From a virus, in IMG/VR virus record IMGVR_UViG_3300042868_001758, positions 1-37,059 of that record: a DNA stretch of 37,059 bases. The stretch is one strand, 5' to 3'. Position 1 is the first letter of the stretch. The number at the start of each line of letters is the position of its first letter. Of the stretch, positions 3,001 through 29,966 are shown in pieces. Below the pieces are notes generated by a model. The model worked only from the letters and a program-made list of their open reading frames with translations, searched no databases and had not been told where the DNA came from. A program made the position numbers and the translations under genes.

Positions 3001-3243
3001 ATGCGTTTTCACCTGACAGACGGAACACAGCTAGACCTGAATGTTAGCGGCAGCATGCTGGGCTACCGCATTTCGTGCGTGACGCTAGACGCAAAGGATA
3101 TTAGCCAGATGTTAGCGGCCGCTGAAGCAGAGCGTGTTTTATTTCTGCAGCATTTGCTAACGCGATTCGCTCCTGACATCGAGACCCTCAACAACTTGGC
3201 ACACGTAAGTAAAGGATTGAAAGATGACCCAGAAGAATGGTAA
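3001..3243 (+). CDS. Hypothetical protein, 80 residues
   Basis: Starts 9 nt after the nuclease gene with a good ribosome binding site (AGGGGCAGCAA before ATG 3001) and overlaps the next gene by 20 nt. The product opens with a predicted strand-rich stretch (MRFHLTDGTQLDLNVSGS) and continues with a helical segment (SQMLAAAEAERVLFLQHLL). No motif or family is recognised. Its position between two nuclease genes suggests a DNA-metabolism setting, but nothing in it shows a function. Confidence 0.7.
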   Translation: MRFHLTDGTQLDLNVSGSMLGYRISCVTLDAKDISQMLAAAEAERVLFLQHLLTRFAPDIETLNNLAHVSKGLKDDPEEW

Positions 3244-3463
3244 GCGCGACTTCAAGCATGCCTACGCCTTGCAGAAGGCCAGTGGCGAGACCAAGGATCA
3301 GCTTGAGCGCCAGAAGGCTCGACAAGCTTACGACAAGGCCGGCATAGACCGCACGGGCAAGCACATCGACCACATCAAGCCGCTGCGCGCTGGGGGCAAG
3401 ACAACCAAGGGCAACCTGCGCCTGCGCAGTCCGAAAGCTAACGTGAGCGATAACGGGAAATAA
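3224..3463 (+). CDS. Small HNH-type nuclease-like protein
   Basis: A 79-residue basic protein. The C-terminal half has HIDHIKPLRAGGKTTKGNLR followed by LRSPKANVSDN, which is the His-Asn-Asn/His layout of an HNH beta-beta-alpha metal nuclease (DH dyad, central NL, and a late Asn where the last ligand normally is). The N-terminal half is a Lys/Arg-rich helix (KARQAYDKAGIDRTGKH) suited to DNA contact. ATG 3224 overlaps the previous gene, and the stop is one base before the helicase start. It is small compared with mobile HNH endonucleases and could be a resolvase-like or nicking accessory of replication. The nuclease call is from motif only. Confidence 0.75.
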   Translation: MTQKNGKRDFKHAYALQKASGETKDQLERQKARQAYDKAGIDRTGKHIDHIKPLRAGGKTTKGNLRLRSPKANVSDNGK

Positions 3464-3464
3464 G

Positions 3465-5897
3465 ATGGAGATTCTGGACAACAAGGCTGTGCTCATCAAG
3501 ACGCGCAACCCTGCGAAGTACACCGTAATACCCAAGAGCCGCATCGTTGAGGATCACGGCAATGGCGGCTACACCGTCGCTGTTTTCTTCGGCCTCGACG
3601 AGATGCGGGTGCTCAAGAACCTGGGCGTCAAGAAGGTACTCTCGCCGATCACGCGCAAGTACAACTGGCCCGGGCGCTACCGCCCGATGGAGCACCAAGT
3701 AGACACCGCGTCGTTCCTGACGCTGCACCGCCGAGCCTTCTGTTTCAACGAACCTGGGACCGGGAAGACCCTCTCAGCGCTGTGGGCGGCTGACTACCTG
3801 ATGACGCGGGGTGAAGTGCGTCGCGTGCTCATACTGTGCCCGCTGTCGATCATGCACAGTGCCTGGATGGGGGACATCATGAACTCGGTGATGCACCGCA
3901 GCGCTGTCGTAGCCCACCATGCGCAAGCCTCGCGCAGAATAGAACTGGTGCAGGGGGACTATGAGTTCGTCATCACCAACTATGAAGGGCTGAACCTTAT
4001 CAACCGCGAGGTGCTCAACGATGGCCGGTTCGATCTGATCATTGTTGATGAGTGCTTTGTAGCAGGGACGCTAGTGTCCACCCCGCAGGGGCGACGCCCG
4101 ATTGAACAGCTAGAAGCCGGGGACGCGGTCTTGACTTCTGACGGAGTAATGCGTATAAAAAGACTTGTACGCAACACTGCTACGCAATTGGTTGAGGTCA
4201 AACTTGGAAACGGCAAAATCGTCCGGTGTACCCCTGAGCATCCCTTCTTTACTGATGTCGGTTGGGTATGCGCCAAAAATCTTGCGGGAAGACGGCTTAT
4301 ATCTGGCGCTGAGCTGTCCCGTTTGCGGGACGGAATACCGCCGCAAAAAAGCGCAGATGCTTTGGTTTCTATCGAAGGGGATTCCGACTGGGGTTACCTG
4401 TTCCAGATCTTGCGCACGGAAGAGGTGGCATCTAATGAATCCCGGAGCCAGCTACTTCAACCATATTTTGCCGGATCAACGGGGGAAAACGTCGGGGCCG
4501 AAGACGCCAGAACATCGGGCGAAGTTGTCAGCAGTAGCGAAAGCCAACGGGTACAAGCCGATTGTGCGCGGGGGGAACGGTACGGGCATGACGCCGATGG
4601 AACAGTTGATTTCCGAGGTCTTACCTGTGGGGTGGGCATGGAACTACCCAGTAGCGTTGGGCAAGAGGCAGCAAGGCTTTCCTACGAACTACAAGCTCGA
4701 CTTTGCGTGGCCGCACCTCAAAGTGGGGCTGGAAGTGGACGGGGGCAGTCACACCCTGTTAGCGCGGCAAGCGCAGGATCGGAAGAAGGAAGCCAAGCTG
4801 GCGGAGCTTGGGTGGAAAGTGTTTCGTATATCGAATGCCCAAACGGGGAGCCTGTATACAACCTCGAAGTTGAAGGAACACCTAACTACTTTGTTGGGAA
4901 TCATTGGCTAGTCCACAACTGCAACGCATACAAGAACCCCACGACACAGCGCTGGAAGTCCCTGCAGTCGATCATTCATCCGCACACCTACCTGTGGATG
5001 ATGACGGGAACACCTGCATCGCAGTCGCCTGTGGACGCTTACGGTCTGGCCAAGCTGGTGAACCCCAACGGTGTGCCGAAGTTCTACACGGCATGGCGGG
5101 ACAAAGTGATGAACAAGATCACGCAGTTCAAGTGGGCACCCAAGCCAGAGTCCAAGAAGCTGGTGCACGAGGTCTTGCAGCCCGCCATCCGGTTCACCAA
5201 GGAGCAGTGCCTGGATCTCCCACCCGTCACGACAGTCACCCGCGAAGTCGCGCTCTCACCGCAGCAGACGAAGTACTACAAGCTGCTCAAGGAACAGATG
5301 CTGGTGCAGGCTGCCGGCGAGACGATCAGCGCAGTGAATGCGGGCGTGATGGTCAGCAAGCTCTTGCAGGTGTCGTGCGGATCGGCGATCACAGACGACA
5401 AGGAGATTGTGGAATTCGATGCCTCAGCACGGCTTAAAGTCTTGATGGAGGTCATCGAGGAGACCAACCGCAAGGTCATCATCTTCGCAATGTTCCGCTC
5501 TAGTATCGACACGATCACCACGTACCTGGAGAAGAATAACGTCAAGACTGCGCAGATTCACGGCGACGTGAGCGCGACAAAGCGAGGGGCGATCATCAAC
5601 GACTTCCAGCACACGCCCAATGTTCAGGTCTTGGTCATGCAGCCCCAGGCGACGGCACACGGGATCACGCTGACTGCTGCCGACACGGTAGTGTTTTATG
5701 GCCCGCTGATGAGCGTTGAGATGTACCTGCAATGTATTGCGCGAGCCGACCGCAAGGGGCAGAACTCCGACAAAGTGACTGTGGTGCATATACAAAGTAG
5801 CCCCATCGAGCAAAAGATGTTCAAGGCTATGGCGTCCAAGGTAAGTGACCACGCACTACTCGTCGACATGTTCGATAGCGAGGTTAAAAATAGTTGA
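3465..5897 (+). CDS. SNF2/superfamily 2 DNA helicase interrupted by an intein
   Basis: An 810-residue precursor. The extein is an SNF2-type ATPase of about 521 residues. Motif I is NEPGTGKT (about residues 95-102), motif Ia LILCPLSIMHSAW, motif II the DE at 195-196, motif III MMTGTPAS, and the C-terminal lobe ends with motifs V/VI (QATAHGITLTAADTVVF, then QCIARADRKGQ). The intein covers residues 197-485 and splits motif II: DE is separated from Cys486-Asn-Ala-Tyr-Lys-Asn. After splicing this restores DECNAYKNP, the expected DExx-KN motif. Without splicing the ATPase should be dead. The helicase probably acts in phage DNA replication, recombination or remodelling. The start ATG 3465 follows GGGAAATAAG and lies one base after the HNH gene. 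Confidence 0.93.
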   Translation: MEILDNKAVLIKTRNPAKYTVIPKSRIVEDHGNGGYTVAVFFGLDEMRVLKNLGVKKVLSPITRKYNWPGRYRPMEHQVDTASFLTLHRRAFCFNEPGTGKTLSALWAADYLMTRGEVRRVLILCPLSIMHSAWMGDIMNSVMHRSAVVAHHAQASRRIELVQGDYEFVITNYEGLNLINREVLNDGRFDLIIVDECFVAGTLVSTPQGRRPIEQLEAGDAVLTSDGVMRIKRLVRNTATQLVEVKLGNGKIVRCTPEHPFFTDVGWVCAKNLAGRRLISGAELSRLRDGIPPQKSADALVSIEGDSDWGYLFQILRTEEVASNESRSQLLQPYFAGSTGENVGAEDARTSGEVVSSSESQRVQADCARGERYGHDADGTVDFRGLTCGVGMELPSSVGQEAARLSYELQARLCVAAPQSGAGSGRGQSHPVSAASAGSEEGSQAGGAWVESVSYIECPNGEPVYNLEVEGTPNYFVGNHWLVHNCNAYKNPTTQRWKSLQSIIHPHTYLWMMTGTPASQSPVDAYGLAKLVNPNGVPKFYTAWRDKVMNKITQFKWAPKPESKKLVHEVLQPAIRFTKEQCLDLPPVTTVTREVALSPQQTKYYKLLKEQMLVQAAGETISAVNAGVMVSKLLQVSCGSAITDDKEIVEFDASARLKVLMEVIEETNRKVIIFAMFRSSIDTITTYLEKNNVKTAQIHGDVSATKRGAIINDFQHTPNVQVLVMQPQATAHGITLTAADTVVFYGPLMSVEMYLQCIARADRKGQNSDKVTVVHIQSSPIEQKMFKAMASKVSDHALLVDMFDSEVKNS
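4053..4919 (+). mobile_element. Class 1 intein in helicase motif II
   Basis: A 289-residue intein. Cys1 starts block A (CFVAGTLVSTPQG). Block B is RCTPEHPFF, with the Thr-x-x-His that activates the N-terminal splice junction. The C-terminal half has block F (VYNLEVEGTPNYFVGN) and block G (HWLVHN), ending in His-Asn and followed by Cys+1 of the extein. All residues needed for standard splicing are present. The N-terminal splicing part is about 88 residues and the C-terminal part about 37, the sizes of natural split-intein halves. The 160-odd residues between them, in this frame, are a Ser/Gly/Glu/Ala-rich stretch with no LAGLIDADG or other endonuclease motif. That DNA encodes an endonuclease in the +1 frame. 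Confidence 0.93.
4255..4911 (+). CDS. Vsr/DUF559-type homing endonuclease nested out of frame in the intein
   Basis: A 218-residue reading from ATG 4255, in the +1 frame relative to the helicase-intein ORF and wholly inside it. It contains a CPVC...CSRSC zinc finger (cysteines at nt 4315-4413), a NUMOD3-like segment (SGPKTPEHRAKLSAVAKA, about nt 4492-4545) and a nuclease core NYKLDFAWPHLKVGLEVDGG, then SH, then RQAQDRKKEAKLAELGWKVF. The Asp, Glu-x-Asp and His pattern matches the Vsr-like 'EDxHD' homing endonucleases linked to fractured split-intein genes. The stop TAG (4909-4911) lies inside the codons of intein block G. The start is uncertain: a TTG at 4165 gives 248 residues and ATG 4435 would drop the zinc finger. 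None has a clear ribosome binding site. The likely role is to spread the intein by cutting intein-free helicase alleles. Confidence 0.85.
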   Translation: MSVGYAPKILREDGLYLALSCPVCGTEYRRKKAQMLWFLSKGIPTGVTCSRSCARKRWHLMNPGASYFNHILPDQRGKTSGPKTPEHRAKLSAVAKANGYKPIVRGGNGTGMTPMEQLISEVLPVGWAWNYPVALGKRQQGFPTNYKLDFAWPHLKVGLEVDGGSHTLLARQAQDRKKEAKLAELGWKVFRISNAQTGSLYTTSKLKEHLTTLLGIIG

Positions 5898-5978
5898 AAA
5901 AGAGGGCATACAGGCCGCAAAATTACGGCTATGATTGTCAAAGGTTAGACAAATAAAGACTAAGGACAGGAGAGAAAA
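5898..5978 (+). promoter_or_regulatory. Intergenic leader with strong ribosome binding site
   Basis: An 81-nt gap, one of the few real gaps in the replication arm. It is AT-richer than its surroundings. It ends with AGGACAGGAGAGAAAAATG, a strong Shine-Dalgarno site for the gene at 5979. A TATGAT at 5930-5935 resembles a -10 box but has no fitting -35 hexamer, so I do not call a promoter with confidence. Confidence 0.4.
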
Positions 5979-6395
5979 ATGACGCAAGACATCGAATCCG
6001 CCAGCATCCCTATGGACAAGCTGGCCCGGGTGTATCGCAAGATGCAGGCCCGGATTCAAGAACTGACGACGGCTTACGAGACCGAGGTCGAGACGCTCAA
6101 AGCACAGCAAGAAGCTGTGAAGACGGCGCTCAAAGACCAAATGCTGGCTCTTGGGCTCAAGTCAGTTAACACGGCGGAGGGGGTCGTCATCCTATCAACC
6201 AAGACGCGCTACTCGACCCAGGACTGGGAAGCGCTTGGGCAGTTCATGATTGAGAACGATGCGATTGACTTGTTGGAAAAGCGCATCGCGCAGACCAACA
6301 TGGCGTCCTTCCTGAGAGATAACCCCGGGGTAGTTCCACCCGGACTTAACAGTAACTCTGAGTACGCGATCAGCGTAAGAAAGCCCACAAAATGA
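5979..6395 (+). CDS. Conserved-type phage protein with N-terminal coiled coil
   Basis: A 138-residue protein. Residues 12-55 form a heptad-rich helix (KLARVYRKMQARIQELTTAY and onward). The C-terminal part has a compact motif: NTAEGVVILSTKTRYSTQDW, then DLLEKRIAQTNMASFL, then a late PPGLNSNSEYAISVRKP. From memory this order, in which an aromatic/Asp-Trp turn, a 'dLLekR' helix, a 'vPPGLN' turn and a terminal 'VRKP' strand follow one another, recurs in many phage genomes beside single-strand-binding or recombination genes; its function is unknown. The stop overlaps the next start (ATGA). It could be an accessory of replication or recombination. Confidence 0.8.
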   Translation: MTQDIESASIPMDKLARVYRKMQARIQELTTAYETEVETLKAQQEAVKTALKDQMLALGLKSVNTAEGVVILSTKTRYSTQDWEALGQFMIENDAIDLLEKRIAQTNMASFLRDNPGVVPPGLNSNSEYAISVRKPTK

Positions 6396-11212: not shown

Positions 11213-14200
11213 TCAGGGTGCGCTAGACATCTGCCGGATCATCGTTGCTAGCTGGATCTGCATTTCCTTGACGCGCTTGATCTGCGCTTGCTTCTGCTCT
11301 GAAGACATCCCAGGCGCCATTTCGATCTGGCGTCGGAGAGCCGCCAACTCACCCATCTGCTGCCGGAATGCTCCACCTGTCGAGTTCAGCGCAATCTCAC
11401 GGGCGTACTTGTCAGCGAAAGCTGCGGCATCTGCGCGGTTGCCTGATTTGAGTAGGCTTTGATACGTCCCTGCCGCTTTGCGGAACTCCTCGACGTCCTT
11501 GAATGCTGCGTCCACAATGCCCCGGCCCGTAGCAGGCTGGAACAACGACCCGATAGCCGGCATCTCACTGAGCGCCCGTGCAGGTTTATCTGTCGCGTTG
11601 GGGCTGACCAATGGGCGCAGAGGGTAGTTGGCCATGCTGGCAAGCAATATCCCCAGGCCGCCTGTGTAGCCGCGAATCAAGTGGTCAACGCTAACGGGAG
11701 AGATAGCGCCCGTCTTGCCCAGAATCTTGGCAATCTCCGTGGTGTTATTGCGGAACTGCTGCGCCGTTGTCAGTCCTGACTCTCGCTCGGAAATGATGGG
11801 TGCGTCGGTGTAGAAGTTGTAGTTGGCCGCCAGCTCAATGAGCGGTTTGACGCCTGCTGGGAGTCCGATTGGTTGCGACATTGCGAGCATCTTGCCGAAG
11901 GCATCCATGGCATCGCGCGCCTTAGTGTCACCAGCCGCTGTGTTGAAGATCATCTCGGGGATGACTTTGAACATAAGCCCCGGCTCGAATGGGATCGGGA
12001 TGCGCAGCGGCTCATCAACGCCTGGAATACGCAAGAACCAGTACTGCGCACGCTCCAGCGGTGTAGCGGTCTTGTATGCCTCATCATCCTGCATCAGCGC
12101 CGCATACGCGAACGTCATGCCGAACATCAGTGCGCCACGTTTCCAGAGCTTGGCACGCGCATCCAGCTTTGCTTGGAACGCGGTGTCGCCAGTAATAGCC
12201 GCACGGTAGACCGCATCCAGACCCTGGATCTGCGAGTTGAAGAACGGGATCATCGTGGAGAGCCAGTGCAGGCTGGCGGATGTCCCACGACGCGAGAAGT
12301 TCATGGACTCTGCAGCGCCGAGCACCGCTTCGAGGTGCGACATACCTTTCTTGCGGAAGTTGTTGTACAGCGCAGCGCGTGTGGCCGTGTCGGCCTTCAA
12401 CCCCAGCGCGTCTAGCTTGGCCAAGACGCCGTTGATATTCCAGCCGTTCTTGCCGCTCGTAACGTCGCGCAGCGCGTTGGCCATTTCTTCTTGGCTGCCC
12501 GGATAGATGTCGCTGCTGATCGCCCCGGCCTGCTTAAGGCTCAGACCTGCAGGCGTATCGCCTTTGAGAGACTTGGCGAATTCACGGTACGTATCAATCA
12601 CCGCCGAGAAGTCACCGCCAGTGGTCATGTACGCATGGATCGGGTCGCGAATAAGCTGACGATAAGCGTAGGTCGGCAGGCGCGTAATGCCCTTGCGCAA
12701 AATGTTGGCCGGGAGCCCCATCAGCTTCACGGTTGCGGGGATAGCCGTCTTGATGCCTTGCAGCCCCATGATGACGACATCGGCGGGGATGTCTGGTGGG
12801 AACGCGGTCTCGTCTAAGCGAACATAGTACTTCTCGCCTTTGGAACTGAACCGTGCGGTAAACACATCCCGAGGCCCTTCGCCCTGGATGATCTTGGCCA
12901 GGCCCATGTCTTGCAGCATGTTTCCGACGTCACGCATTTGCATGTTTCGCACAGCCGAGCGGACGATGAGCGACGTGTTCTGCACCATGCCGGAGAAGAC
13001 GGGCAGGATCTTGTCTTCACCGCCGACAAGCTCTTTAAGCTGGGGCTGGTCAATGATGCTGCCAATAGTAATAGGTTTGCTGCTGCCAACATATAGTTGC
13101 ACAAGCCCTTTGGTAATGCGGTAGTACGGCACGTAGTCGCCGGCGGTCAGCGCGTTGGCCTTCTCTTGCGTCATGCTGCCGGAGTCAACAAAAAACTGCA
13201 GCAAGTCTTTGTTGTACTGGCGATAGATGGCGCGCGCGTCTTCGAAGGCCTTTTTAGTGTCAGCGTCAGACTCGACAATCGCTTTGACCGCCTTGGCTTT
13301 CTCGGCGTTAAGGATCGGGTTGCCTTGCTTGTCGTTGCCGTAGTTCAGCTTGTCGTAGCCGATGCCGTCACGCTCCGCGCGAAGGATAGCCATCCAACTT
13401 GTCCACAAGTCTTCCACAAAGTGCGCATTGCCGAGCTTGGATCCGCTCAACGCCTGGGCCATCTTCTTTGCGCTGGGGCCATCTGTCTGCCCCTCGATGA
13501 CTTTCACGCCATCGGCGTTGCGTGTGATTTTCGGCGGGCCATCACTAAGCGATCGTTGGGCCAGGCGGCTGGTGTCGTCGTAAACACGCATCAGGAGCCG
13601 CATTTGCAGCGCCTGGGCTTCCGACAGTTTTCCTTTTGATACGCCGAGTTTGATCAGTGCTTCGCTCGGTGCCCAGTTGTCGGCAGCTATTGTGCGCATG
13701 CGCAGCCCCATCGCGGAGGCGGTGATCTTGTCTCCTAGAGAAGCGGATCTACCCACCAACGCGTTGACCGTGGCGACGGCACCTGGATCGACGTTTGCTG
13801 CTGCAACGGCCTTGGTACCTGAGAACACGCCGCGCATGATCGACGGCAGCATCACCGAGTCTTTGGCCATAGGGCTGGGCGGCTGGAAAATCTTGAGCGC
13901 TGAAGCCATCGCTTGTTCAGACAGGCTCTTTGGCTCCATGCCCAGCATGCGCATGATGGCTTGATAGAAGCGCTGCAAGAAGCCCGGCTTAACAGCGTCG
14001 ATTTTTTCTCGCAGATTCGCGTTTGTCATGAGTTCAGCGACGAACTCTTCGACGTTCTTCTTGCCGTATTCTCTGGCAAAGGCGGGATCGTCTTTGAGCT
14101 TGGCGTACAGGGACTCCAGCTCAGAGCGGGCAGCGCGTTGCTCTGCGGTGAGGGTGTTTGGGTCTGCGCGAAGCACGCCCAGGGTCACTGCGTGAACCGC

Positions 14201-17200
14201 CTCGTGCAGTACTGTCTCCTCGTGCATCGAGCGATTGTCGATGTAGATACGGTTCTTAACAGGGTCGTAGAGACCCGCTACGTTCACGCCCTTATCTTTG
14301 AGGTTCTCAACAAGGATCAGCTTAGGACGACGCCCCACTGCCCTAAGCGTATCTTGGAGGTTCTTTACCAACGCCCTGTTGAAAGGCGTAGAACTCTCCC
14401 CGATAGCTTCAAGCAACCCCATCAAGTTCCCGTCTTCCGCTGCCGATACCCCATCAGGGTTTATCAGGTTGGTCGGGAAAGCGTCGTAGAGGTCATTGTT
14501 CTCGCGCAAGGCAACGTCGTTGTCTGTGTCCGTATCCGAGTCGAACTTGTCATCTGAGAACAGATCCGGCTGCTCTTCCATGAGCCTTCTAGTCTCGGTC
14601 TCAGCTTTGGCTACTTCTTCAGCCTTGGTTTCTGCTTTAGGCGCGGCTTTAGGCTCTGCTTTAGGCTTTGCTTTTTCCGATTGCGCCCGCTTTGCCGCAG
14701 CACGTTTTTCTTCAACGGCTTTTTTTGCCGCCGCTTGTTTCTCTACCGCAGCTTGCTTGGCTTCTTCCCGTTTTTCTACAGGTGTCTGAGGCGTTTTTGG
14801 TGCGGGTGCAGGCGCTGCTGTAGGAGCCGCTTTCTCTTTTACAGGAGCCGTCTTGGCTGCTTTAGCGGCGCGCTCAACCGCAGTGTTTAATGGCCGGAGA
14901 CCTCTTGTGGCGGCATTCGCTGCAGCCGTGCGTTGCTTCATAACGTTGCGAGACTGTGTGATCGACTTGAGCAGCGCTTCGGCTCTGGCATCATCGGCGG
15001 CAGATGTGAATACCGACGGGCTCTCGTCTTCAAACCGATCAATGTCTCGAAGGGCCTGCCGAAGATCTTCCGTTTGCTTGGCTGCAGGCATCTTCGGCGT
15101 CACAGCGCCTGGGCCTTCGGCCTCGAACTGCGCAAGCTCACGCTGCTGTTGCGTGATGTCTTGCTGCTTACCAACACGGGCTTCTTGAACCAACGGGGCG
15201 GTCTCGGACGTGCCCATCAGTGCTTGGATGTCGGCCTTGGCCTTTGCCAGCGCAACATTGGCTGCCCGTTGACCTTCAACCGACTGCTCACGACCTGCGG
15301 CAATCTTTTCCGCCAGTGCCGTTTCGTATGCCTGCAGCACGGCTGCGCCTTGTTCAAGATTGACCTGTGGAAACTCTGCAAGTTTTTCTTGGAGTTTTAA
15401 GACCTTGGCGTACTCAGCGTCCGCCATTTCTCGATCGCCGACGGCTTGCGCTCTTTCAAACCGGCGCTGGGCCTGCATCATTTTCTTTTCGATACCGGCC
15501 CTCTGCATGTCTTCCGTTTTTTCCGGAATAACGGCGGCCTGGGCTTTTAGATCTTCCACCTGCTTGCGCATCGCATCAACTTCTTGACGCATTTCATCCG
15601 CTTTTTTCCGCTCGGCATCGGCGGCTTTGCGCACCCCTGCATACGACGCAAACGGTGCCGTAGACGCCTTATCGTCGAGGTCGGCAACAACCGCTTCTTG
15701 CTTTTTAAAAAGCGCCTCTTTGCGATCCGCCATTATCGACAGCTTGCGGGCTTCTTCCTGTGTATCAAACGCTGTTGGTTCAGCCTCGGCCTCAACATCA
15801 AACTTGCGCGTGGGGAGCACGGGCTCCGTTAAACCAGGAATAAGCGTCTGCTGCATCGGCCCGGCGCCGCCTTCCAGCGCTTCTTGTTTCTGGCGTTCAG
15901 CACGCGCCGTTTTGTCAGCCGCAATCTCCTGAGCTGTGGGCTTAAACGCCAGCGTGCCTTGGCCTTCAACGGTAGGCGCTGCAAAGGTAGCGATCTGCTG
16001 ACGAACCTCTACGAGCTTGCCCAACACCGCCTGTTTCTGTGGCGCTGTCTTGGCTTTTTCTGCGAGATTGGTGAGTTCCACCTCTTTCTTTTGCAGCGCC
16101 TCAAGCGTAGGCAATTTACCGCCAAGATTCTTGAGCTGGGCATCGGCTTCTGTCAGCGCGGTCTTGACCTGCACCGCCTGATTGAACAGGGCGCGTTGCT
16201 CTTCAGGGACGGCACTCTTCATCGCCCGCCCAGAGATTTCGGTGTAGGCTTTAGCGAGCGTGTCCCGTTGCTGCATTAGCTCTACGCGCTGCTGTGTAGG
16301 CGTCAAGGTGGCCGGGGCTGGGGTAACTTCCGCAGGCTGTTGGAAGTACTGCTGATTCTCTTGTTCAGCCGCAAGTTGTTCAGCAGCACCGGGTTGTGCA
16401 GCGCCAAGCTCAAACCCAGGCAGCATGGGCTGCGCCATCGGGCCAGCACCGCCTTGCAACGCCTCTTGCGTCTGGTCTGCTACTTGCAGCGCCTGGATGT
16501 CATTGAACCGTTCTTTGTACTCTTGCTTGACAGGTTTGTACCGCTCAATAAAATCCTTTTTGGCAGCTACGGCGGCTTCGTAAGTCTTCAGCGCGTCTTC
16601 GTACGCGAGTTCCTGTTCAGCAGAGGCGTCCTTGACCTTCTTGGGCTTTTCTATCTTCGGCAGCGTCTGCTTTTCCCGCTCCAGCGCTTGGTACTGCGTG
16701 TTTAGTTCCCGAAGGTACTCAGGCTGCTGCTTGCGCTCCGCTTCCGCTGCGTCAGCCTCGGCTTGAGCGGCTTGGGCCGCAGTACGTTCCTCGGCTTGCT
16801 TAGCCTCGGCAACCGCACGCTCTTCGCCTAGCCGTTTTTCTTCTAGCTTCTTGCCCTGGGCTTTGATACTTCCGCGATCAACAGCGCGACCAAAGGGGCC
16901 TAAGACAAAGGCCAACGCGGCGCCGCCTTGGAGGCTCTCAAGGTACTCTTTACGGGCTTCGGGGTCGCTGATGTCCAACCCGGCTTGAGCGCGTTCCAGA
17001 AGCTGCTGTGCTGCTTCGGTAAGCCCTTCGGCGGTCATAGCCTGACTGGTGGCTTTTGTGTAGTCCCAGGCAATCTGTTTCAGCGTCTGGTTAGCCAGCG
17101 CTTTAGCGCCCGCTTCCGTGACTTCCCGGCCTGCTGCGCCCAGCAGTTTCCCGAGCCCAGGAGCCAAGAACATAGCGGCTGTATCAAGCGCTGCCTGCGG

Positions 17201-17755
17201 AACGGCAGTTAACGCGGCTTTACCGAGATCGGCTTCTTCCAGCGTCTTGCCCGTCTCCATTTGCGCGGCCAAGTTCGAGCCTGTGAACTGTCCGGTAGAC
17301 ACTGCGCCAGCACCCAAAGCACCCAGCGCTGCCGCCGACAAAGCTCCAGACACCGGCAGTGTGGTTGCCGCAAACCCCGCCGCTAGTGGTGCCGCCATAT
17401 AGGGCAACGAGCCGCCTAGCGTCTCTTTGAACTTCAGCCAAGGAGACGTAGACCAGTCATCTTGCGTTGGGGTGAACCGCTGTGCAGCAGCGGCTTCCTG
17501 CTCCTTGTAGTACTTCTCCGCTTCGGGCAGGCCCATCAAGCCCATCTTGCCTAGAGTCAGCGCCCCTTCACCCTTCAGGCGCTTGAGCCCTGCGCTTGCA
17601 GCAGCAATCCCGCCGGAGGTGTCTTCTTTAGGTTTCGACGGGGCAAAACCGAAGGCTTCGGGGTACTGCCGCAGCGCAGCCGACATAGCCTCCTGCGGTG
17701 ACTGCCCTTCTTGAATAGGATATCCAGAACCGTCAGGAAGAATTACGTAGGCCAT
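11213..17755 (-). CDS. Giant polyvalent/internal virion-type protein with HExxH motif
   Basis: A 2180-residue protein, the largest gene here. The N-terminus (GYPIQEGQSPQEAMSAALRQ) is followed by Gly/Ala-rich hydrophobic segments around residues 110-185 that could insert in membrane. Residues about 280-1070 are Ala/Glu/Lys/Gln-rich, disordered or coiled-coil, with Pro/Ala/Lys tracts. An HEAVH zinc motif lies near residues 1184-1188, followed by an EEFVAEL helix that could give the third ligand. The C-terminal 700 residues resemble the LPD38-type domain of large polyvalent phage proteins (RLPTYAYRQLIRDPIHAY and onward). Such proteins are thought to be packaged and ejected with the DNA. The start ATG 17755 has no clear ribosome binding site and follows a strong terminator. 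It is the last gene of the minus-strand operon. Confidence 0.85.
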   Translation of the reverse strand: MAYVILPDGSGYPIQEGQSPQEAMSAALRQYPEAFGFAPSKPKEDTSGGIAAASAGLKRLKGEGALTLGKMGLMGLPEAEKYYKEQEAAAAQRFTPTQDDWSTSPWLKFKETLGGSLPYMAAPLAAGFAATTLPVSGALSAAALGALGAGAVSTGQFTGSNLAAQMETGKTLEEADLGKAALTAVPQAALDTAAMFLAPGLGKLLGAAGREVTEAGAKALANQTLKQIAWDYTKATSQAMTAEGLTEAAQQLLERAQAGLDISDPEARKEYLESLQGGAALAFVLGPFGRAVDRGSIKAQGKKLEEKRLGEERAVAEAKQAEERTAAQAAQAEADAAEAERKQQPEYLRELNTQYQALEREKQTLPKIEKPKKVKDASAEQELAYEDALKTYEAAVAAKKDFIERYKPVKQEYKERFNDIQALQVADQTQEALQGGAGPMAQPMLPGFELGAAQPGAAEQLAAEQENQQYFQQPAEVTPAPATLTPTQQRVELMQQRDTLAKAYTEISGRAMKSAVPEEQRALFNQAVQVKTALTEADAQLKNLGGKLPTLEALQKKEVELTNLAEKAKTAPQKQAVLGKLVEVRQQIATFAAPTVEGQGTLAFKPTAQEIAADKTARAERQKQEALEGGAGPMQQTLIPGLTEPVLPTRKFDVEAEAEPTAFDTQEEARKLSIMADRKEALFKKQEAVVADLDDKASTAPFASYAGVRKAADAERKKADEMRQEVDAMRKQVEDLKAQAAVIPEKTEDMQRAGIEKKMMQAQRRFERAQAVGDREMADAEYAKVLKLQEKLAEFPQVNLEQGAAVLQAYETALAEKIAAGREQSVEGQRAANVALAKAKADIQALMGTSETAPLVQEARVGKQQDITQQQRELAQFEAEGPGAVTPKMPAAKQTEDLRQALRDIDRFEDESPSVFTSAADDARAEALLKSITQSRNVMKQRTAAANAATRGLRPLNTAVERAAKAAKTAPVKEKAAPTAAPAPAPKTPQTPVEKREEAKQAAVEKQAAAKKAVEEKRAAAKRAQSEKAKPKAEPKAAPKAETKAEEVAKAETETRRLMEEQPDLFSDDKFDSDTDTDNDVALRENNDLYDAFPTNLINPDGVSAAEDGNLMGLLEAIGESSTPFNRALVKNLQDTLRAVGRRPKLILVENLKDKGVNVAGLYDPVKNRIYIDNRSMHEETVLHEAVHAVTLGVLRADPNTLTAEQRAARSELESLYAKLKDDPAFAREYGKKNVEEFVAELMTNANLREKIDAVKPGFLQRFYQAIMRMLGMEPKSLSEQAMASALKIFQPPSPMAKDSVMLPSIMRGVFSGTKAVAAANVDPGAVATVNALVGRSASLGDKITASAMGLRMRTIAADNWAPSEALIKLGVSKGKLSEAQALQMRLLMRVYDDTSRLAQRSLSDGPPKITRNADGVKVIEGQTDGPSAKKMAQALSGSKLGNAHFVEDLWTSWMAILRAERDGIGYDKLNYGNDKQGNPILNAEKAKAVKAIVESDADTKKAFEDARAIYRQYNKDLLQFFVDSGSMTQEKANALTAGDYVPYYRITKGLVQLYVGSSKPITIGSIIDQPQLKELVGGEDKILPVFSGMVQNTSLIVRSAVRNMQMRDVGNMLQDMGLAKIIQGEGPRDVFTARFSSKGEKYYVRLDETAFPPDIPADVVIMGLQGIKTAIPATVKLMGLPANILRKGITRLPTYAYRQLIRDPIHAYMTTGGDFSAVIDTYREFAKSLKGDTPAGLSLKQAGAISSDIYPGSQEEMANALRDVTSGKNGWNINGVLAKLDALGLKADTATRAALYNNFRKKGMSHLEAVLGAAESMNFSRRGTSASLHWLSTMIPFFNSQIQGLDAVYRAAITGDTAFQAKLDARAKLWKRGALMFGMTFAYAALMQDDEAYKTATPLERAQYWFLRIPGVDEPLRIPIPFEPGLMFKVIPEMIFNTAAGDTKARDAMDAFGKMLAMSQPIGLPAGVKPLIELAANYNFYTDAPIISERESGLTTAQQFRNNTTEIAKILGKTGAISPVSVDHLIRGYTGGLGILLASMANYPLRPLVSPNATDKPARALSEMPAIGSLFQPATGRGIVDAAFKDVEEFRKAAGTYQSLLKSGNRADAAAFADKYAREIALNSTGGAFRQQMGELAALRRQIEMAPGMSSEQKQAQIKRVKEMQIQLATMIRQMSSAP

Positions 17756-17837: not shown

Positions 17838-19448
17838 TTAAGGTTTTGGGGGACGAATAACCGGAGGAGGCGTTTCTGAAACCGACGCCTTGTTCATTGC
17901 GGCAAAGGTTGCCCGCATCGCTCTGTACTGTTCAACCGCTTCTTGAGGTTTTAGCAGTGGGTTTGCCTGCGCAAACTTCATGAGCCCCTCTACATCCTCC
18001 GCACCAAGCTTTGCTTGTGCTGCTGCGTAACGTAAATTATCGGCACGCTCTTCCGCTTGCAGACGCATCTGAGTAGCCTGAAGCGTCGTTGCGTTCCCCG
18101 CTGCAGCAATTTCTTTTTGAGACGTTATCTGCATTTGCGCAAGCAACATGTCGTGCGCTTCTTTATGCGTTATTCCATAAGCGGCTGCAACAGCATCAAC
18201 CTGGGCCTTCATGCTGTTCTCGCTACGGGCAGCCATAGCGTCTCTACGCGCTTGCGCCTTCTCGAAGTCTCCGGCTTTTGCTGAGCGTTCCGCTTCGGCA
18301 AGCGCGGCCAAGCCCATCTTGCGTTCTTTCTCGGCTTTCTTGAGGTCTTTCTGCGCGCGCGAGTACTGCTCGCCTCCAGCAGACGCCCCTTCAACAATCG
18401 CTTGAATGGCGTTCTTACCGGGCTGCACAACCTTGGATGCGAACGTCAGCCAAGCCAAGCCTTCGTTTGTTCGCTGCTCTTTCTCTACATCGGCACGGTC
18501 TTCTTCGAGCGCGGCCTTGCGTTCTTTGAACGACTCGGACTCAGGGCGGTTTGCGAGATATTCCATCTCCCGCTGCGCATCGCGCTTTGCTTGCGCTTCT
18601 TCAGCGTCTGCATACACTTTGCGTATGCTTTTTATGAAGCTGTCATCCGCCGCCACGGGTGCGGCTCCGGCAGGAGCGCGAGGGATTGCACCTAGCCCTG
18701 CGCTAGGTTGTGCTGCTCCAGGGCCTCCGGGTGAAGTTGGGAGAGGGGGCATGGATGCACCACCGCCAGTACGTGTTGCGTAGTCGGTTGGAAGGGGGCT
18801 AACGGGGCTAACGGGGGGTGCAGTACGATTCTTAAGTTTTGCGTATGTCCAATCCCCTTCGGGGTTCCCCTCGTTAGCTTTTTGCATCTCAGCAGACGTC
18901 TGCACGGAACGCACGAGAGGGATATTTCTAATATCTTCTTCGCCAATTAGCGGCGTGTCTCGAACCGGGTTCGGTGCTGTCCAGTGCCGGCGTTTAGTGG
19001 GCGCGAACACGCCTTCTGGCCAATACTCGGAACCCGGTACGCTGCCTCGGTTCTGAAACCGAATCGCTCCGCCATCTGCGTAGGCAACACCGCCAGTGCC
19101 GAAATCGCGATCATCGGCGTGGGCATACGGGCCGGCTGTGGACTCACCACCGCCTGCAAACGCGACCAAGCCGCCATCAGCAAACTGCATGTTGGGGTTC
19201 AGCGCACCAATACCCTGGTCTTCTGGCAACTGAGCGGGCTGCATTGCAGCCAAGGCTTGCTGGTTCACTGGCGCCTGGGGAGCCGCGCCTTGCCCTTGCG
19301 GAGCAGAGCGCAGCTCTTTGCGCATGTTGCTCTCGTTGAACGCCAAGGGGAACATGTACGGATCCTGCTTGTGCATCTCAGCGAAGCGCTGCAGTTCCTG
19401 GTCGCTCATCATCCGAAGACGGGACGTGATCTGGTTCGCGTTAATCAT
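17838..19448 (-). CDS. Virion-associated coiled-coil protein, 536 residues
   Basis: The first 60 residues are helical (LRMMSDQELQRFAEMHKQDP). The next 200 are Pro/Gly/Ala-rich and probably disordered, with two 'ADGG' motifs (FADGGLVAFAGGG and YADGGAIRF). Residues about 260-520 form long charged helices (AQAKRDAQREMEYLANRPES, KKAEKERKMGLAALAEAERS). The tail is proline-rich (ETPPPVIRPPKP). No enzyme motif was found. I chose ATG 19448, with AAGGG nine bases upstream; the longer reading begins with TTG 19454 inside the previous stop. Its place before the giant protein and after the repeat protein suggests an internal or tail-associated virion component. Confidence 0.72.
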   Translation of the reverse strand: MINANQITSRLRMMSDQELQRFAEMHKQDPYMFPLAFNESNMRKELRSAPQGQGAAPQAPVNQQALAAMQPAQLPEDQGIGALNPNMQFADGGLVAFAGGGESTAGPYAHADDRDFGTGGVAYADGGAIRFQNRGSVPGSEYWPEGVFAPTKRRHWTAPNPVRDTPLIGEEDIRNIPLVRSVQTSAEMQKANEGNPEGDWTYAKLKNRTAPPVSPVSPLPTDYATRTGGGASMPPLPTSPGGPGAAQPSAGLGAIPRAPAGAAPVAADDSFIKSIRKVYADAEEAQAKRDAQREMEYLANRPESESFKERKAALEEDRADVEKEQRTNEGLAWLTFASKVVQPGKNAIQAIVEGASAGGEQYSRAQKDLKKAEKERKMGLAALAEAERSAKAGDFEKAQARRDAMAARSENSMKAQVDAVAAAYGITHKEAHDMLLAQMQITSQKEIAAAGNATTLQATQMRLQAEERADNLRYAAAQAKLGAEDVEGLMKFAQANPLLKPQEAVEQYRAMRATFAAMNKASVSETPPPVIRPPKP

Positions 19449-19450
19449 TT

Positions 19451-21613
19451 TCAACCCTTCATCCGAGACAATGCCAACTCATTAAGGCCAGCCGCCTTAA
19501 CTCTACCGCCTTTGGCCATGCCTGCCATCTTGCTGACACCGTAAGCTGCCGAACCAAGCCCGATAAGATTCTGCGCGGTGGTTGGCGGTGCTTCGTAAAT
19601 TGAGCGGGTGGTGCCTTGCGTACCGCGCAAAATGTCGGACAAGAACCCGAGCTGCTGCGTTGGGTAGTTCCGAGCCGCAGAGAAGTCAGCGTATTGCCGG
19701 TTGAGGATGTCCTGGATCTGCTGCTGTTGGAACCCGCCGAATCCGGCTTGCTGGCCCGTGATGGCCTGCTCTTGACCAAACTGTTGCTGGCCGAGCTGCC
19801 CAAGTTGCCCCGCGCCTTGCAGCGCCGTCTGTAACCCTTGCTGCCCGAACCCTGCGCCGTACTGCCGAGACTGCTCAGACAACCGCTGTGCTTCAAGACC
19901 GGCTTGCTGGTTCTGCTGCTGGGCCTGCATCATGGCTTGCAGGTTTGCCTGCCCCGCCGTCAATCCGGCCTGCTGGTTAAGCTGTTGCGCCTGCATGTAT
20001 GCGCCAAGCCCGGCTTGACCTGTGGTAAGACCCGCCTGCTGATTGGCCAGCGCAGCGCGCTGCGCTTCTTGTTGGTTAGCCTGTTGCGCTTGCATGCTTG
20101 CTTGCTGATTGGCCAACCCCGCCTGCATATACGACTGCAACCCCGCCTGTCCGGTCGTCAAACCTGCTTGCTGATTAGCCAGCGCTGCGCGTTGCGCTTC
20201 TTGTTGGTTAGCGAGCTGAGCTTGCATGCCGTACTGCTGATTGGCCTGCTGCGCCTGCATCATGGTCTGCAGGTTTGTTTGCCCCGTAGTAAGTCCAGCC
20301 TGCTGGTTGGCCAGAGCCGCACGCTGTGCTTCTTGCTGGTTAGCAAGCTGCGCTTGAATATCCGTCTGCTGGTTGGCTTGTTGCGCTTGCATAAATGCGC
20401 CCAACCCCGCTTGACCCGCAGTGAGTCCAGCCTGCTGATTGGCTAGTGCTGCGCGTTGGGCTTCTTGCTGGTTAGCAAGCTGCGCCTGCATGCCGTATTG
20501 CTGGTTGGCTTGTTGCGCTTGCATATAGGACTGCAATCCAACTTGACCCGTAGTGAGTCCAGCCTGCTGGTTGGCTTGCTGAGCCTGCATCATCGCTTGC
20601 TGGTTGGCTTGCTGTGCTTGCAGCGCTCGCGCCTGATCGGACGTGAACATGCTCTGCGCTTGCTGATACGCCGACTGAAGACCTTGGGACTGGATATCAC
20701 CCTTCTGCATCGCCAGATTACGTGCGGCTTCGGCCTCCATGATGGCTTGGCGAGACCCGCCAAAAGCACCAGCGCCTACAGCCTGGGCACCACGCTGCGT
20801 ACGCGCAATATCTGCCTGACGCTGTGCTTCGCGTTGCTGGGTATTGACCACGTTCTGCATGTACGGAGACATGTACGCTTCAGCAGCGCCTGGGGCAGTG
20901 AACCCTTGCGTACCGACCTGCCCAGCTCCAACCCGCTCAAAACCGATTTGGCCCCCAGAAATGCGATCCGCCTGGACTTGTGGGCCACCGCCTACGCGCT
21001 CAAAACCTAGATTTCCTGCACTAATTTGTTGGGCGCTAACTTGTGGGCCACCGCCTACGCGCTCAAAACCCATCTGGCCTGCTGCAATGCGATCCGCCTG
21101 GACTTGTGGGCCACCGCCTACGCGCTCAAACCCGAACCCACTTGCGCCTACTTGCGGTGCGTACACCTGCGGCCCAGCGCCTACACGCTCAAAACCGAAC
21201 TGACCTGCGCCGACCTGCTGTGCGCCAATCTGCCCAGGACGAATCTGCTGTGCAAAGAACTGGTTCGGTTGGTACTGTTGCCCCATCGCACGCGAAGCAG
21301 CGCCGTATGCAATATTTGAAGCATCCGTAAGCTGGGGTGCGACTTGCTGGTTCTGCGCGGACTGGAATGCCTGCTGCTGCATAGGGGTGAACTGTGCAGC
21401 CCGCTCTCCTGTGTACTCTTGATAGGGTGCATTAGCGACAGCTTGCGCTTGCCCCACCAACTCCATGTACGGTTTTTTTGCGTACTCAGGAATATTGGTC
21501 TGATAAGACGTCGCTGTTGACCCGCTGCTACTACTGCCACCGCCATCGCCCAAGAAAACGCCAAATACGCCAGACTCTTTAAGGCAGCCTAAAAGAAACT
21601 TAATTACGCTCAT
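19451..21613 (-). CDS. Gln/Ala/Gly-rich repeat virion protein, 720 residues
   Basis: A low-complexity structural-type protein. Residues about 135-245 are five 21-residue repeats built on GFERVGGGPQV. Residues about 330-580 are 44-residue repeats built on QAGLTTGQ, MQAQQANQQ and EAQRAALANQ. Between them lies a conserved-looking stretch, EAYMSPYMQNVVNTQQREAQ, then a Gly-rich turn and AIMEAEAARNLAMQ, seen from memory in many phage virion proteins. The C-terminus has a short hydrophobic helix (TAQNLIGLGSAAYGVSKMAG). It overlaps the preceding gene by 14 nt. It may form extended, glutamine-rich helical fibres in the particle interior or tail; the function is not shown. Confidence 0.78.
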   Translation of the reverse strand: MSVIKFLLGCLKESGVFGVFLGDGGGSSSSGSTATSYQTNIPEYAKKPYMELVGQAQAVANAPYQEYTGERAAQFTPMQQQAFQSAQNQQVAPQLTDASNIAYGAASRAMGQQYQPNQFFAQQIRPGQIGAQQVGAGQFGFERVGAGPQVYAPQVGASGFGFERVGGGPQVQADRIAAGQMGFERVGGGPQVSAQQISAGNLGFERVGGGPQVQADRISGGQIGFERVGAGQVGTQGFTAPGAAEAYMSPYMQNVVNTQQREAQRQADIARTQRGAQAVGAGAFGGSRQAIMEAEAARNLAMQKGDIQSQGLQSAYQQAQSMFTSDQARALQAQQANQQAMMQAQQANQQAGLTTGQVGLQSYMQAQQANQQYGMQAQLANQQEAQRAALANQQAGLTAGQAGLGAFMQAQQANQQTDIQAQLANQQEAQRAALANQQAGLTTGQTNLQTMMQAQQANQQYGMQAQLANQQEAQRAALANQQAGLTTGQAGLQSYMQAGLANQQASMQAQQANQQEAQRAALANQQAGLTTGQAGLGAYMQAQQLNQQAGLTAGQANLQAMMQAQQQNQQAGLEAQRLSEQSRQYGAGFGQQGLQTALQGAGQLGQLGQQQFGQEQAITGQQAGFGGFQQQQIQDILNRQYADFSAARNYPTQQLGFLSDILRGTQGTTRSIYEAPPTTAQNLIGLGSAAYGVSKMAGMAKGGRVKAAGLNELALSRMKG
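19880..20640 (-). repeat. 132-bp coding tandem repeat
   Basis: About four full and two partial imperfect copies of a 132-bp unit (44 codons). The phase is visible from the GCTGATTGGCCAGCG-type segment recurring at about 20034, 20166, 20298 and 20430, exactly 132 bp apart. It encodes the Gln-Ala-Asn-rich part of the 720-residue protein. The copies differ mostly at synonymous positions, so the array is not brand new. Confidence 0.88.
20936..21240 (-). repeat. 63-bp coding tandem repeat
   Basis: Five copies of a 63-bp unit. The CTCAAAACC core starts at 20936, 20999, 21062, 21125 (as CTCAAACCC) and 21188. It encodes 21-residue units built on GFERVGGGPQV, followed by alternating spacers such as QADRIAAGQM and SAQQISAGNL. 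Central copies share the 20-bp core CCGCCTACGCGCTCAAAACC, so they are recent or homogenised. Confidence 0.88.
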
Positions 21614-22055
21614 CTAAATGCTCCTTGCGATAGTCGTCAAAGCGTTCATGCACTACGCTTTTCCATACGTCTGGTAAAAATTTCTGTGCTTCTTGCGGCC
21701 CAAGACACACGTGCACGGCATACGCAACAATATGGCCAGCAGCGTAACGCAAATTGTGCGAAATCTCGATTCCGTGCGGGTCTTTGTCTTGCTCGAACTT
21801 ATTAGCCGTTTGATACGCAGAAACTACCATCAACCACATTGGCATTATCTGCGACTGGATTTTTTGATAGAACGGGTTCAGCGGTAAATAGACAAGACAA
21901 ATGAGAAACGCATTGTTGATAGCGTCTGCGGCCACATCTTTGTCCTTGTCTACTAGGTCGTCCCATGTGTGCGCCAGATCGACAAACATGCGGTACATGG
22001 CCAGTGCGTCTTGGTTCCCGCCGAACCACTCCAGTTTGCCTTCGTTGCTGTACAC
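21600..22055 (-). CDS. Conserved-type hypothetical protein, 151 residues
   Basis: Starts with GTG (22055), preceded by AAGGAT, and overlaps the next gene by 14 nt. The product is helical with aromatic-rich stretches (GKLEWFGGNQDALAMYRMFV; PLNPFYQKIQSQIMPMWLMV; LRYAAGHIVAYAVHVCLGPQ). It has no signal peptide or catalytic motif that I recognise. It follows the methyltransferase gene by 3 nt, so the two are probably co-translated. A fold of packed helices is likely; its function is unknown. Confidence 0.68.
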   Translation of the reverse strand: MYSNEGKLEWFGGNQDALAMYRMFVDLAHTWDDLVDKDKDVAADAINNAFLICLVYLPLNPFYQKIQSQIMPMWLMVVSAYQTANKFEQDKDPHGIEISHNLRYAAGHIVAYAVHVCLGPQEAQKFLPDVWKSVVHERFDDYRKEHLDERN

Positions 22056-22058
22056 GGG

Positions 22059-22721
22059 CTATCCTTTAGTGAACACAAAAACGATCGTTCTCGTGTCCGG
22101 CGTTTCGTGACCGTGCCAAGAACCCATACGCGATTTTTGCATGAACTCGCTCCAGTGCTGCGTAAATACTTCGGGGTGCACCAGAGCTTCGCAGCGTAGG
22201 CCGGCATTGGCTGCCGAGAACAGCACACTGTGCATGGGGTGCGCACGGTACTCCCACTCTGGAACGTACACGTCTTTGAGCAACTGCTTTCTAGACGCAA
22301 AATCTTTTATTACCAGCCGACCGCCAGAACGAAGCAGCCGTGCAGATTCGATCATCAACGCCGTGAGGTCACCATAGCCCAACGACTCGTTGAACATTAC
22401 GTAGTCAGCCACTGCGTCAGGAATGTCCTCGACATGGTGATAGTCCGACAAGATGCAGTCGCGCCCTAAGTAGCGCATGATTCCTGCTTGCGTTGGGCTG
22501 CTAGTAATGTTCAGCGTGCGGGTGATCTCTGGCGACACTGCTTTAAGCCCCGCGCACATAGTGCCAATACCAGCGCCCATGTCGATCACGAACCCACGGG
22601 GCTTAAAGTGTTCGTTGTAGAAGTGAACGTGCGCGTCTTCTGAAGACCCAAACAGGGTGCACTGGAACAGGTTTAGCCCGTGCTCCAAATACTCCGCTGT
22701 TTCGATCTCGTAGTCGTTCAT
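22059..22721 (-). CDS. Class I SAM-dependent methyltransferase
   Basis: A 220-residue Rossmann-fold methyltransferase. VIDMGAGIGTMCAGL (about residues 45-59) is the S-adenosylmethionine-binding motif I. DYVMFNESLGYG is in the place of motif IV, and LLRSGGRLVIKDF matches the later beta-strand of the core, followed by a residue pattern typical of small-molecule or protein methyltransferases. There is no DNA-methylase (DPPY/NPPY) motif. The start overlaps the preceding stop (ATGA). It lies among virion genes, which hints that it modifies a virion component or a host small molecule during late infection. The substrate cannot be told from sequence. Confidence 0.8.
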   Translation of the reverse strand: MNDYEIETAEYLEHGLNLFQCTLFGSSEDAHVHFYNEHFKPRGFVIDMGAGIGTMCAGLKAVSPEITRTLNITSSPTQAGIMRYLGRDCILSDYHHVEDIPDAVADYVMFNESLGYGDLTALMIESARLLRSGGRLVIKDFASRKQLLKDVYVPEWEYRAHPMHSVLFSAANAGLRCEALVHPEVFTQHWSEFMQKSRMGSWHGHETPDTRTIVFVFTKG

Positions 22722-24823: not shown

Positions 24824-24881
24824 TGGTGCCTCGCAGAAAAGGGGTTGTTAAAGTTTAGCATGTCGGGTGTCAAGGGCAAAG
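24824..24881. other. Short intergenic gap
   Basis: 58 nt between two minus-strand virion genes. It is AT-richer than its surroundings (GTTGTTAAAGTTTAGCA near the middle). I see no hairpin or clear promoter. It carries the start region of the 701-residue gene with a weak ribosome binding site. Confidence 0.4.
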
Positions 24882-26255: not shown

Positions 26256-26257
26256 AG

Positions 26258-28414: not shown

Positions 28415-28419
28415 TGTTT

Positions 28420-29332: not shown

Positions 29333-29340
29333 AGGGCCTC

Positions 29341-29700: not shown

Positions 29701-29711
29701 AGGTGCCTTCG

Positions 29712-29957
29712 TTAAATCCGTGCGGTTGCAAGAGCGCCGAGGACGGCGCCTGCAATTGTCGCCAAAGCGTCCAGCAGTTCTGGGTTGCCCTTGTTTGATA
29801 CCTTGTCGTAGACCTCTTTAGCCACAGCCGCCACGGTGCCCGCCAGCAAGCCCGCAACCACGCCGAAGAAAAAATGCACGAGGATGAAGATCACCAACCC
29901 GTAGATCAGGTGGTTGGCTTTGTCTTGGGGGAGTTGTGGGGGTTGTGGGAGGTTCAT
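29712..29957 (-). CDS. Small membrane protein, 81 residues
   Basis: Starts with a Pro/Gln-rich tip (MNLPQPPQLPQDKANH) followed by two hydrophobic segments: LIYGLVIFILVHFFFGVVAG (about residues 17-36) and LLDALATIAGAVLGALATAR (about 61-80), joined by a charged loop (KEVYDKVSNKGNPE). It may be a second holin, antiholin or spanin-like lysis helper, given the lysis genes just downstream. AAGGAACACGC before ATG 29957 is a good ribosome binding site. Confidence 0.72.
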   Translation of the reverse strand: MNLPQPPQLPQDKANHLIYGLVIFILVHFFFGVVAGLLAGTVAAVAKEVYDKVSNKGNPELLDALATIAGAVLGALATARI

Positions 29958-29966
29958 GCGTGTTCC

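Follow-up and report, generated by a model that had tools for sequence, protein, structure and literature searches.

Most inteins carry an in-frame LAGLIDADG or HNH domain, and in the usual picture a single polypeptide is responsible for both splicing and cutting. The locus described here raises the question of whether the two activities can be encoded by the same DNA in two different reading frames. It is located in a 37,059-base IMG/VR virus record (IMGVR_UViG_3300042868_001758, positions 1 to 37,059), called the window throughout, and consists of a SNF2-type helicase gene interrupted by an intein, the DNA of which is also open in the +1 frame. The explanation favoured here, to which a probability of roughly 0.85 is assigned, is that a contiguous intein contains a nested, out-of-frame homing endonuclease gene made by internal initiation, and that the element probably both splices and homes. 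A nested, independently translated homing gene had already been proposed by the first-pass annotation, which was made from the sequence of the window, and it is still the best reading on the frame census, the selection analysis and the predicted folds, separate translation being the likely consequence. The features of the locus are the following (here and below, a slash marks a splice junction).

3465-5897, plus strand: SNF2-type helicase gene interrupted by an intein (exteins 3465-4052 and 4920-5897, stop included).
4053-4919, plus strand: intein of 289 residues in frame 0, in the Walker B box at DE/C, recognised by profiles, AlphaFold model and structure matches.
4053-4328, plus strand: Hint-N, with Cys1, VEVKLGNGK (4191-4217) and the block B motif TPEH (4230-4241); predicted local distance difference test (pLDDT) above 90 over residues 1-80.
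4782-4919, plus strand: Hint-C, ending in VHN/C; pLDDT above 90 over residues 251-289.
4204-4911, plus strand: nested nuclease gene in the +1 frame, 235 codons plus the stop TAG (4909-4911); putative TTG start at 4204, in a frame that opens at 4159.
4194-4197, plus strand: GAGG, a probable Shine-Dalgarno sequence six bases before TTG 4204.
4315-4413, plus strand: zinc knuckle motif of the nuclease, CPVC (4315-4326) and CSRSC (4399-4413).
4588-4836, plus strand: DUF559/Vsr-like catalytic core with MTPME, YKLD, EVDGGSH, QDRKK and GWKVFRISN, recognised by profile, motifs and AlphaFold.

From 3465 to 5897 a single frame of 810 codons is open through helicase, intein and again helicase. The insertion falls in the Walker B context IIVDE/C...HN/CNAYK, with Cys1 at 4053 and the terminal Asn ending at 4919. 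The encoded protein matches SNF2-rel_dom, Helicase_C and Intein_splicing in Pfam as well as the N- and C-terminal intein regions in NCBIfam, and Intein_splicing, Hint_2, TIGR01445 and TIGR01443 all exceed their own cut-offs on this frame. A class 1 intein is defined by Cys or Ser at position 1, Cys, Ser or Thr at position +1, a block B of the form TxxH, a C-terminal His-Asn, a Hint fold and splicing. In the window, the residues at 1 and +1, block B, the His-Asn pair and the Hint fold are all as in this definition (Cys1 at 4053, TPEH at 4230-4241, HN/C at 4914-4922, including Cys+1), so that the open frame and intact splice residues reported by the first-pass annotation stand at these positions. 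The same residues are retained in the 128 distinct inteins collected in the census described below: Cys1 and the HN end are each found in 127, the single Cys1 miss being a contig cut at its own end, Cys or Ser at +1 in all 128, the T..H pattern of block B in 117, and DE directly before the intein in 121.

In the +1 frame, the intein DNA is open from 4159 to 4908, and the stop of the nuclease ends at 4911, eight bases short of the intein end. The open reading frame (ORF) 4165-4911 matches DUF559 in Pfam at 6.4e-7, with MTES_1575 and Vsr below their own cut-offs; the best sequence match to a solved structure is 3hrl, a DUF559-like protein (2.9e-10), and the profile match to 3r3p is weak (E 0.029). 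EDxHD homing endonucleases are characterised by the motif residues E-D-x-H-D. In this frame EVDGGSH is located at 4732-4752, and the columns of D140, E151, H157 and D166 are invariant in 57 aligned rows, the first Glu (TxxE) not being among the invariant columns. The endonuclease with CPVC...CSRSC and a Vsr/DUF559 core that had been read in this frame is thus borne out by the motif positions and the DUF559 match, whereas the NUMOD3-like helix claimed together with it found no support, no NUMOD family being matched up to E = 1 in the Pfam search.

The predicted structures are in line with this division of roles. The AlphaFold2 model of the intein (mean pLDDT 60.5, predicted template modelling score, pTM, 0.57) shows the Hint fold at both ends with pLDDT above 90 and a middle mostly at 20-45; among solved inteins it resembles 2lwy (Z 18.0), NpuDnaE and also gp41-1, the last at Z 16.5. 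The model of the nuclease has a mean pLDDT of 83.9 and a pTM of 0.50, and its core resembles the catalytic domain of I-Bth0305I (PDB 3r3p; Z 10.8 over 92 residues, 3.2 Å), 3hrl (Z 10.6) and Vsr (1cw0; Z 9.7 over 100 residues); it shows a Vsr-like catalytic fold, a similarity that says nothing on function. With a Hint-flanked disordered middle in one frame and a folded nuclease in the other, the models suggest that the same DNA encodes disorder and a folded domain at once.

The layout is not confined to the window. A tblastn search with the nuclease returned 41 phage records, every one below 60% identity. Six were fetched (Pseudomonas phage MR14, Vibrio phages 104E43.1, 159E43-1b, CP-T1 and 1.088.O, and Corynebacterium phage phi673), and in all six of these DUF559-kind phages a single long annotated gene encloses the nuclease, which is offset by +1, and both frames are open. 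Two scans of IMG/VR, the first giving the best 80 of 204 matches, yielded 93 loci; with a later, wider scan (best 80 of 356) and a scan of bacterial genomes (11 loci) the total set comprises 182 loci (L008-L189), and since each scan consists of the best 80 matches, rare exceptions may have been missed. Among 101 sources (L001, which is the window's own copy, L002-L100 and the window), profiles of Hint and nuclease gave a Hint-N match in 97, in each of which the nuclease is at +1, and no stop occurs between the Hint halves wherever both were found. In the total set, 168 of the 182 loci, corresponding to the 128 distinct intein sequences, combine both Hint halves with a nuclease at +1 and an intein frame free of stops. 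A DUF559 nuclease in frame with its intein, which had been named in advance as the finding that would speak for a sequencing slip, was sought among the 182 loci without success: no nuclease lies at offset 0 or +2, and 0 of the 173 loci with a Hint match have it in frame. The 14 remaining loci comprise five with Hint-C only, at +1, and nine without a Hint match. Among the former, four begin at a contig end and the fifth is L170; the latter are L068 and L117, two records of a single contig in which the nuclease stands free, and seven weak matches from bacteria. The bacterial-genome scan (alignment A1) contributed three complete nested inteins (L179, L180 and L181), the seven weak DUF559 matches, which lie in bacterial contigs, and L182, which has Hint-C only and is located at the end of its contig. 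One further record, L008, a 61.8-kb contig, is identical to the window over 2,400 bases and may not be an independent sample. On these counts the nested layout is a conserved family and not a single oddity.

Both frames are maintained by selection. In the shared middle of 73 non-redundant loci there is no stop in the intein frame and there are 586 in the third frame. When nuclease codons are permuted synonymously, 5.3 intein-frame stops are expected per sequence over these 73 loci and 3.4 in the window alone, for which the probability of none is 0.014; conversely, 2.2 stops appear in the nuclease frame when the codons of the intein frame are the ones permuted. A +1 frame full of stops in homologues, the other sign of error that the first-pass annotation had asked to be looked for, was not seen, with none over the nuclease ORF vs the 586 of the third frame, a zero that follows partly from how the ORF was delimited. 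Furthermore, substitutions were sorted by their effect in both frames among 17 gap-free relatives including the window (136 pairs), to give ratios of nonsynonymous to synonymous change (dN/dS) whose intervals are somewhat narrow because the pairs are related by descent and only codons were resampled. In Hint-N, the intein frame has a dN/dS of 0.10 (0.06-0.14) and the +1 frame, at 0.72 (0.51-1.05), is nearly free. Both frames are constrained in the zinc knuckle (intein 0.54, nuclease 0.37); in the middle the nuclease leads, with 0.14 (0.09-0.19) in the +1 frame and 0.54 (0.40-0.72) in the intein frame, and in Hint-C both are again constrained (intein 0.47, nuclease 0.31). The main control, a 281-codon run of the 3' extein, has a +1 dN/dS of 0.78 (0.67-0.91) and 10-17 stops in the eight sequences shown. 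Along the element, the focus of selection is thus first the intein frame, then the nuclease frame and finally the intein frame again.

The distribution of the element among host alleles fits a mobile insertion. In a scan for empty sites with the C-extein of the window, 75 of the best 80 of 595 loci are empty exactly at the intein boundary, four are occupied and one is ambiguous. The +1 residue at these 75 sites is Ala in 74 and Cys in one, vs Cys or Ser in 169 of 169 occupied loci (window included, duplicates kept), a difference that fits co-conversion of the codon needed for splicing. In the empty allele L192, the 600 bases flanking the site to either side match the window at 93% and 92% identity.

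From the conservation of and selection on both frames, the two folds, the many empty sites and the altered +1 codon, we infer internal initiation, splicing, cutting and homing, in the following way. A mobile intein in a phage helicase would carry its homing endonuclease as a separate gene, overprinted in the +1 frame on the coding DNA of the intein. Ribosomes reading the helicase frame would produce helicase-N, Hint-N, a disordered linker, Hint-C and helicase-C, a product that should splice; other ribosomes would initiate within the codons of Hint-N, probably at TTG 4204, to make a 235-residue zinc-knuckle EDxHD/DUF559 nuclease. In phages infecting the same cell, Walker B sites without an intein (GTYGAYGAR/GCN) would be cut by the nuclease, and repair of the break would bring in the intein along with the Cys+1 codon.

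As to the start, both GAGG (4194-4197) and TTG 4204 are within the Hint-N codons for VEVKLG, and TTG 4204 is the likely start codon judging from its setting. In the clade of the window, a TTG at that spot or an ATG two codons on is present in 25 of the 25 sequences listed. Of the 71 loci with a +1 frame that extends to the Hint-N spot, 57 have a start codon there, vs 24 of 50 loci in which the frame opens later (p 3e-4), with mean Shine-Dalgarno energies of -4.4 and -1.6, respectively (p 1e-5); five further loci fell between the two groups. Shine-Dalgarno-like sites of -6 kcal/mol or lower precede the zinc knuckle in 59% of cases, vs 25% in exteins and 31% inside the nuclease (125 loci). Other lineages start just ahead of the first Cys, such as GAGGTTTTACTTGATG in MR14.

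Several observations tell against the nested-gene explanation. The start in the window itself is a TTG preceded only by GAGG. A start always placed just before the first Cys was rejected, since a start codon within five codons of this residue is found in only 46 of 72 loci (29.7 expected) and the clade of the window shares the earlier TTG or ATG; selection for a +1-frame ATG in the Asn-Gly ('NG') codons of Hint-N is likewise unsupported, such ATG codons not being enriched (22 AAT and 22 AAC). The catalytic Glu of TxxE is variable, with Gln in some aligned rows. A mitoribosomal protein scores nearly as high against the nuclease core (Z 10.4), and the Foldseek E-values of the nuclease are weak, the best being 2.5e-3 for the mitoribosomal protein and 6.2e-3 for I-Bth0305I. 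In a short extein control of 40 codons, the +1 dN/dS of 0.52 (0.39-0.72) is below that of the main control. Finally, L170 (3830-4669) retains an intact nuclease frame although stops interrupt the frame in which its weak Hint-C match lies; it is perhaps a decayed intein that kept its nuclease.

The alternative that survives best, still an unlikely one, is that programmed +1 frameshifting makes the nuclease as a fusion to helicase-N and Hint-N. It would account for the offset, which is always +1 in the DUF559 family, and some loci, including the window, have a +1 frame open far into Hint-N. In several loci, however, the +1 frame is closed by a stop only one or a few codons ahead of the start (in L055 the frame opens one codon before the ATG), which leaves almost no room for a frameshift; moreover, the enrichment of Shine-Dalgarno-like sites before the start candidates and the +2 position of the HNH kind, described below, also count against it. 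Much less probable is an intein that no longer splices, that is, an unspliced insertion with a hidden nuclease. The precedent for this is the ShiLan domain of phage DNA methylases, which is predicted to be unspliced and has an HNH endonuclease 'hidden' out of frame (PMC11855218; Arsenault, Gosselin and Gogarten 2025). In the window, by contrast, the splice residues are kept, the intein frame of Hint-N has a dN/dS of 0.10 and the model has a Hint fold, and an insert of 289 residues in a Walker B box should abolish ATPase activity. The idea that one frame is a chance ORF, or that the shift is an assembly error in an ordinary in-frame intein nuclease, can be set aside as next to impossible: long chance frames are frequent in high-GC DNA, and the window has 128 ORFs of at least 80 codons, but chance open frames are ruled out by the synonymous permutation and the substitution classes with their extein control, and a sequencing error or recent frameshift by the frame census of the 182 loci, the same offset recurring in independent isolates and contigs and the homologues already contradicting it.

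Among known systems, ShiLan is the nearest. As in the window, a phage gene remains open while a second of its frames encodes an endonuclease of the homing type. The methylase host frame is reported to have no splicing domain and no detectable ribosome-binding site (PMC11855218); in the window, the host frame is a Hint intein, Shine-Dalgarno-like sites are enriched in the family and the nuclease has another fold. An announcement repeats the out-of-frame HNH case for phage Applejack (PMC12613952), and PMC11855218 cites Gorbalenya 1998, 'Non-canonical inteins', beside a sentence on overlapping frames. With the core of I-Bth0305I and Vsr the window nuclease shares its fold, differing in its N-terminal zinc knuckle and in being nested in an intein. 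Dassa et al. (2009; cited in PMC12350094) reportedly described fractured genes in which split inteins are accompanied by EDxHD endonuclease genes. These fractured genes likewise have a Vsr/EDxHD endonuclease gene, read separately, between Hint-N and Hint-C, the halves being on separate ORFs; in the window, one polypeptide of 810 uninterrupted codons spans both halves, and the nuclease overlaps it at +1. Canonical bifunctional inteins have the nuclease region in the same place, between block B and the C-terminal block of Hint, and in the Hint frame, where nuclease and intein are one protein; the DNA of the window would instead specify two proteins, the nuclease being at +1 here and in all 173 Hint-positive loci. 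An example is the in-frame HNH intein of the dCTP deaminase of cyanophage CL131, shown to excise (PMC6293099). HNH-encoding terminase inteins are also reported from mycobacteriophages (PMC3706429). A contiguous intein with splicing domains and an out-of-frame nuclease was not found in the open-licence literature, which covers few subscription papers, in agreement with the novelty claimed at first, ShiLan, without splicing domains, being the closest case found.

Nested nucleases of the HNH kind were found by a nuclease-blind scan with Hint-N of the window alone, which is biased to similar Hint domains and yielded 79 loci from the best 80 of 152. By our own motif patterns for HNH and LAGLIDADG, 36 of these carry a DUF559 nuclease at +1, 28 an HNH at +2, three an HNH at +1 and two an in-frame LAGLIDADG-like domain, five being mini-inteins and five lacking a Hint-C match. 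In the 28 loci with HNH at +2 (22 distinct), the middle contains no stop in the intein frame, none at +2 and 298 at +1. All eight nested proteins compared with Pfam match HNH families, the six of the +2 type at 5.5e-12 or lower and the two of the +1 type at about 5e-5. The two groups are:

L305-L347 (28 loci), L348 (Tetrasphaera phage TJE1), L349 (Acinetobacter phage Highwayman) and L353 (Rhodobacteraceae phage LS06): HNH_3-type nested nucleases in the +2 frame.
L332, L336, L340, L351 (Gordonia phage Clown) and L352 (Synechococcus phage S-EIVl): a different HNH with several CxxC pairs, in the +1 frame.

The annotation of the host gene is large terminase in TJE1, Highwayman and LS06, and terminase in Clown and S-EIVl. 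Out-of-frame nesting, of the DUF559 and HNH kinds together, is thus present in eleven named phage records, and in all eleven, as fetched, only the host gene is annotated at that place, which means that nested nucleases are missed by annotation. The recurrence of the same two-in-one layout in many other phages makes it look like an overlooked way of building such mobile elements.

A broken form of the layout is seen in Vibrio phage 1.238.A (L350, 2441-3428). The frame of terL and Hint-N stops within the HNH gene; Hint-C and the remainder of terL follow in that frame and overlap the opposite end of the HNH gene. By its sequence, this is a fractured gene in the nested layout. The first-pass annotation had also suggested an intermediate between fused and fractured states: this finds no support in the DUF559 family, in which no in-frame member was found and only L170 has a broken intein frame; in the HNH kind, 1.238.A does link nested and fractured forms. 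Further upstream, the terL gene of 1.238.A appears to contain an additional in-frame intein, which is LAGLIDADG-like. The annotation of Pseudomonas phage PAE1 lists a related nuclease separately, following the large terminase.

It seems to us somewhat better than an even bet that nested out-of-frame homing genes are a third general intein architecture, with at least three phage origins (a +1 DUF559 nuclease in Walker B boxes, a +2 HNH_3 nuclease in terminases and another HNH type at +1), counted by nuclease type and frame rather than on a Hint tree; Hint-N codons could supply the start, the intein would need only a disordered linker, and stops in the linker would give a fractured gene with a split intein. 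If so, splicing and nuclease dose could be set separately, yet neither sequence would be free to drift. Split inteins are major protein-engineering tools, and the nested state, which already has a separate nuclease and a disordered linker, would offer a testable route to them, for which the broken linker of 1.238.A is relevant.

The hosts of the DUF559 family fall into 12 clusters, which include several kinds of helicase, a helicase with a methylase domain, a Terminase_6N protein (L040) and DnaX. The DnaX case (L180), a +1 DUF559 member in a contig of a Bacteroides metagenome-assembled genome, lies outside recognised phage records. One cluster is, in our own reading, terminase-like, a label given from sequence only, because PHROGs has no firm match for that cluster: there is a weak terminase match for L054, which may lie in an intein, and no PHROGs family for the gene following the free-standing nuclease in L068. 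In this last contig, the nuclease (3782-4435) is directly upstream of an uninterrupted ATPase gene (4425-6245) of the terminase-like cluster. In the nuclease tree it lies within the intein clade of that cluster (100/97, with a bootstrap not fully settled), which suggests that the nuclease probably left an intein. L342 has a mini-intein of 128 residues at the helicase DE/C site, without a nuclease.

Elsewhere in the window, 11213-17755 and 17838-32591, both on the minus strand, contain one frame of 2180 amino acids and several of 450-880; the four minus-strand frames searched (within 17838-28414) have no Pfam match at 0.001. Immediately upstream of the helicase gene, at 3224-3463, a protein of 79 amino acids matches Pfam HNH at 1.6e-4.

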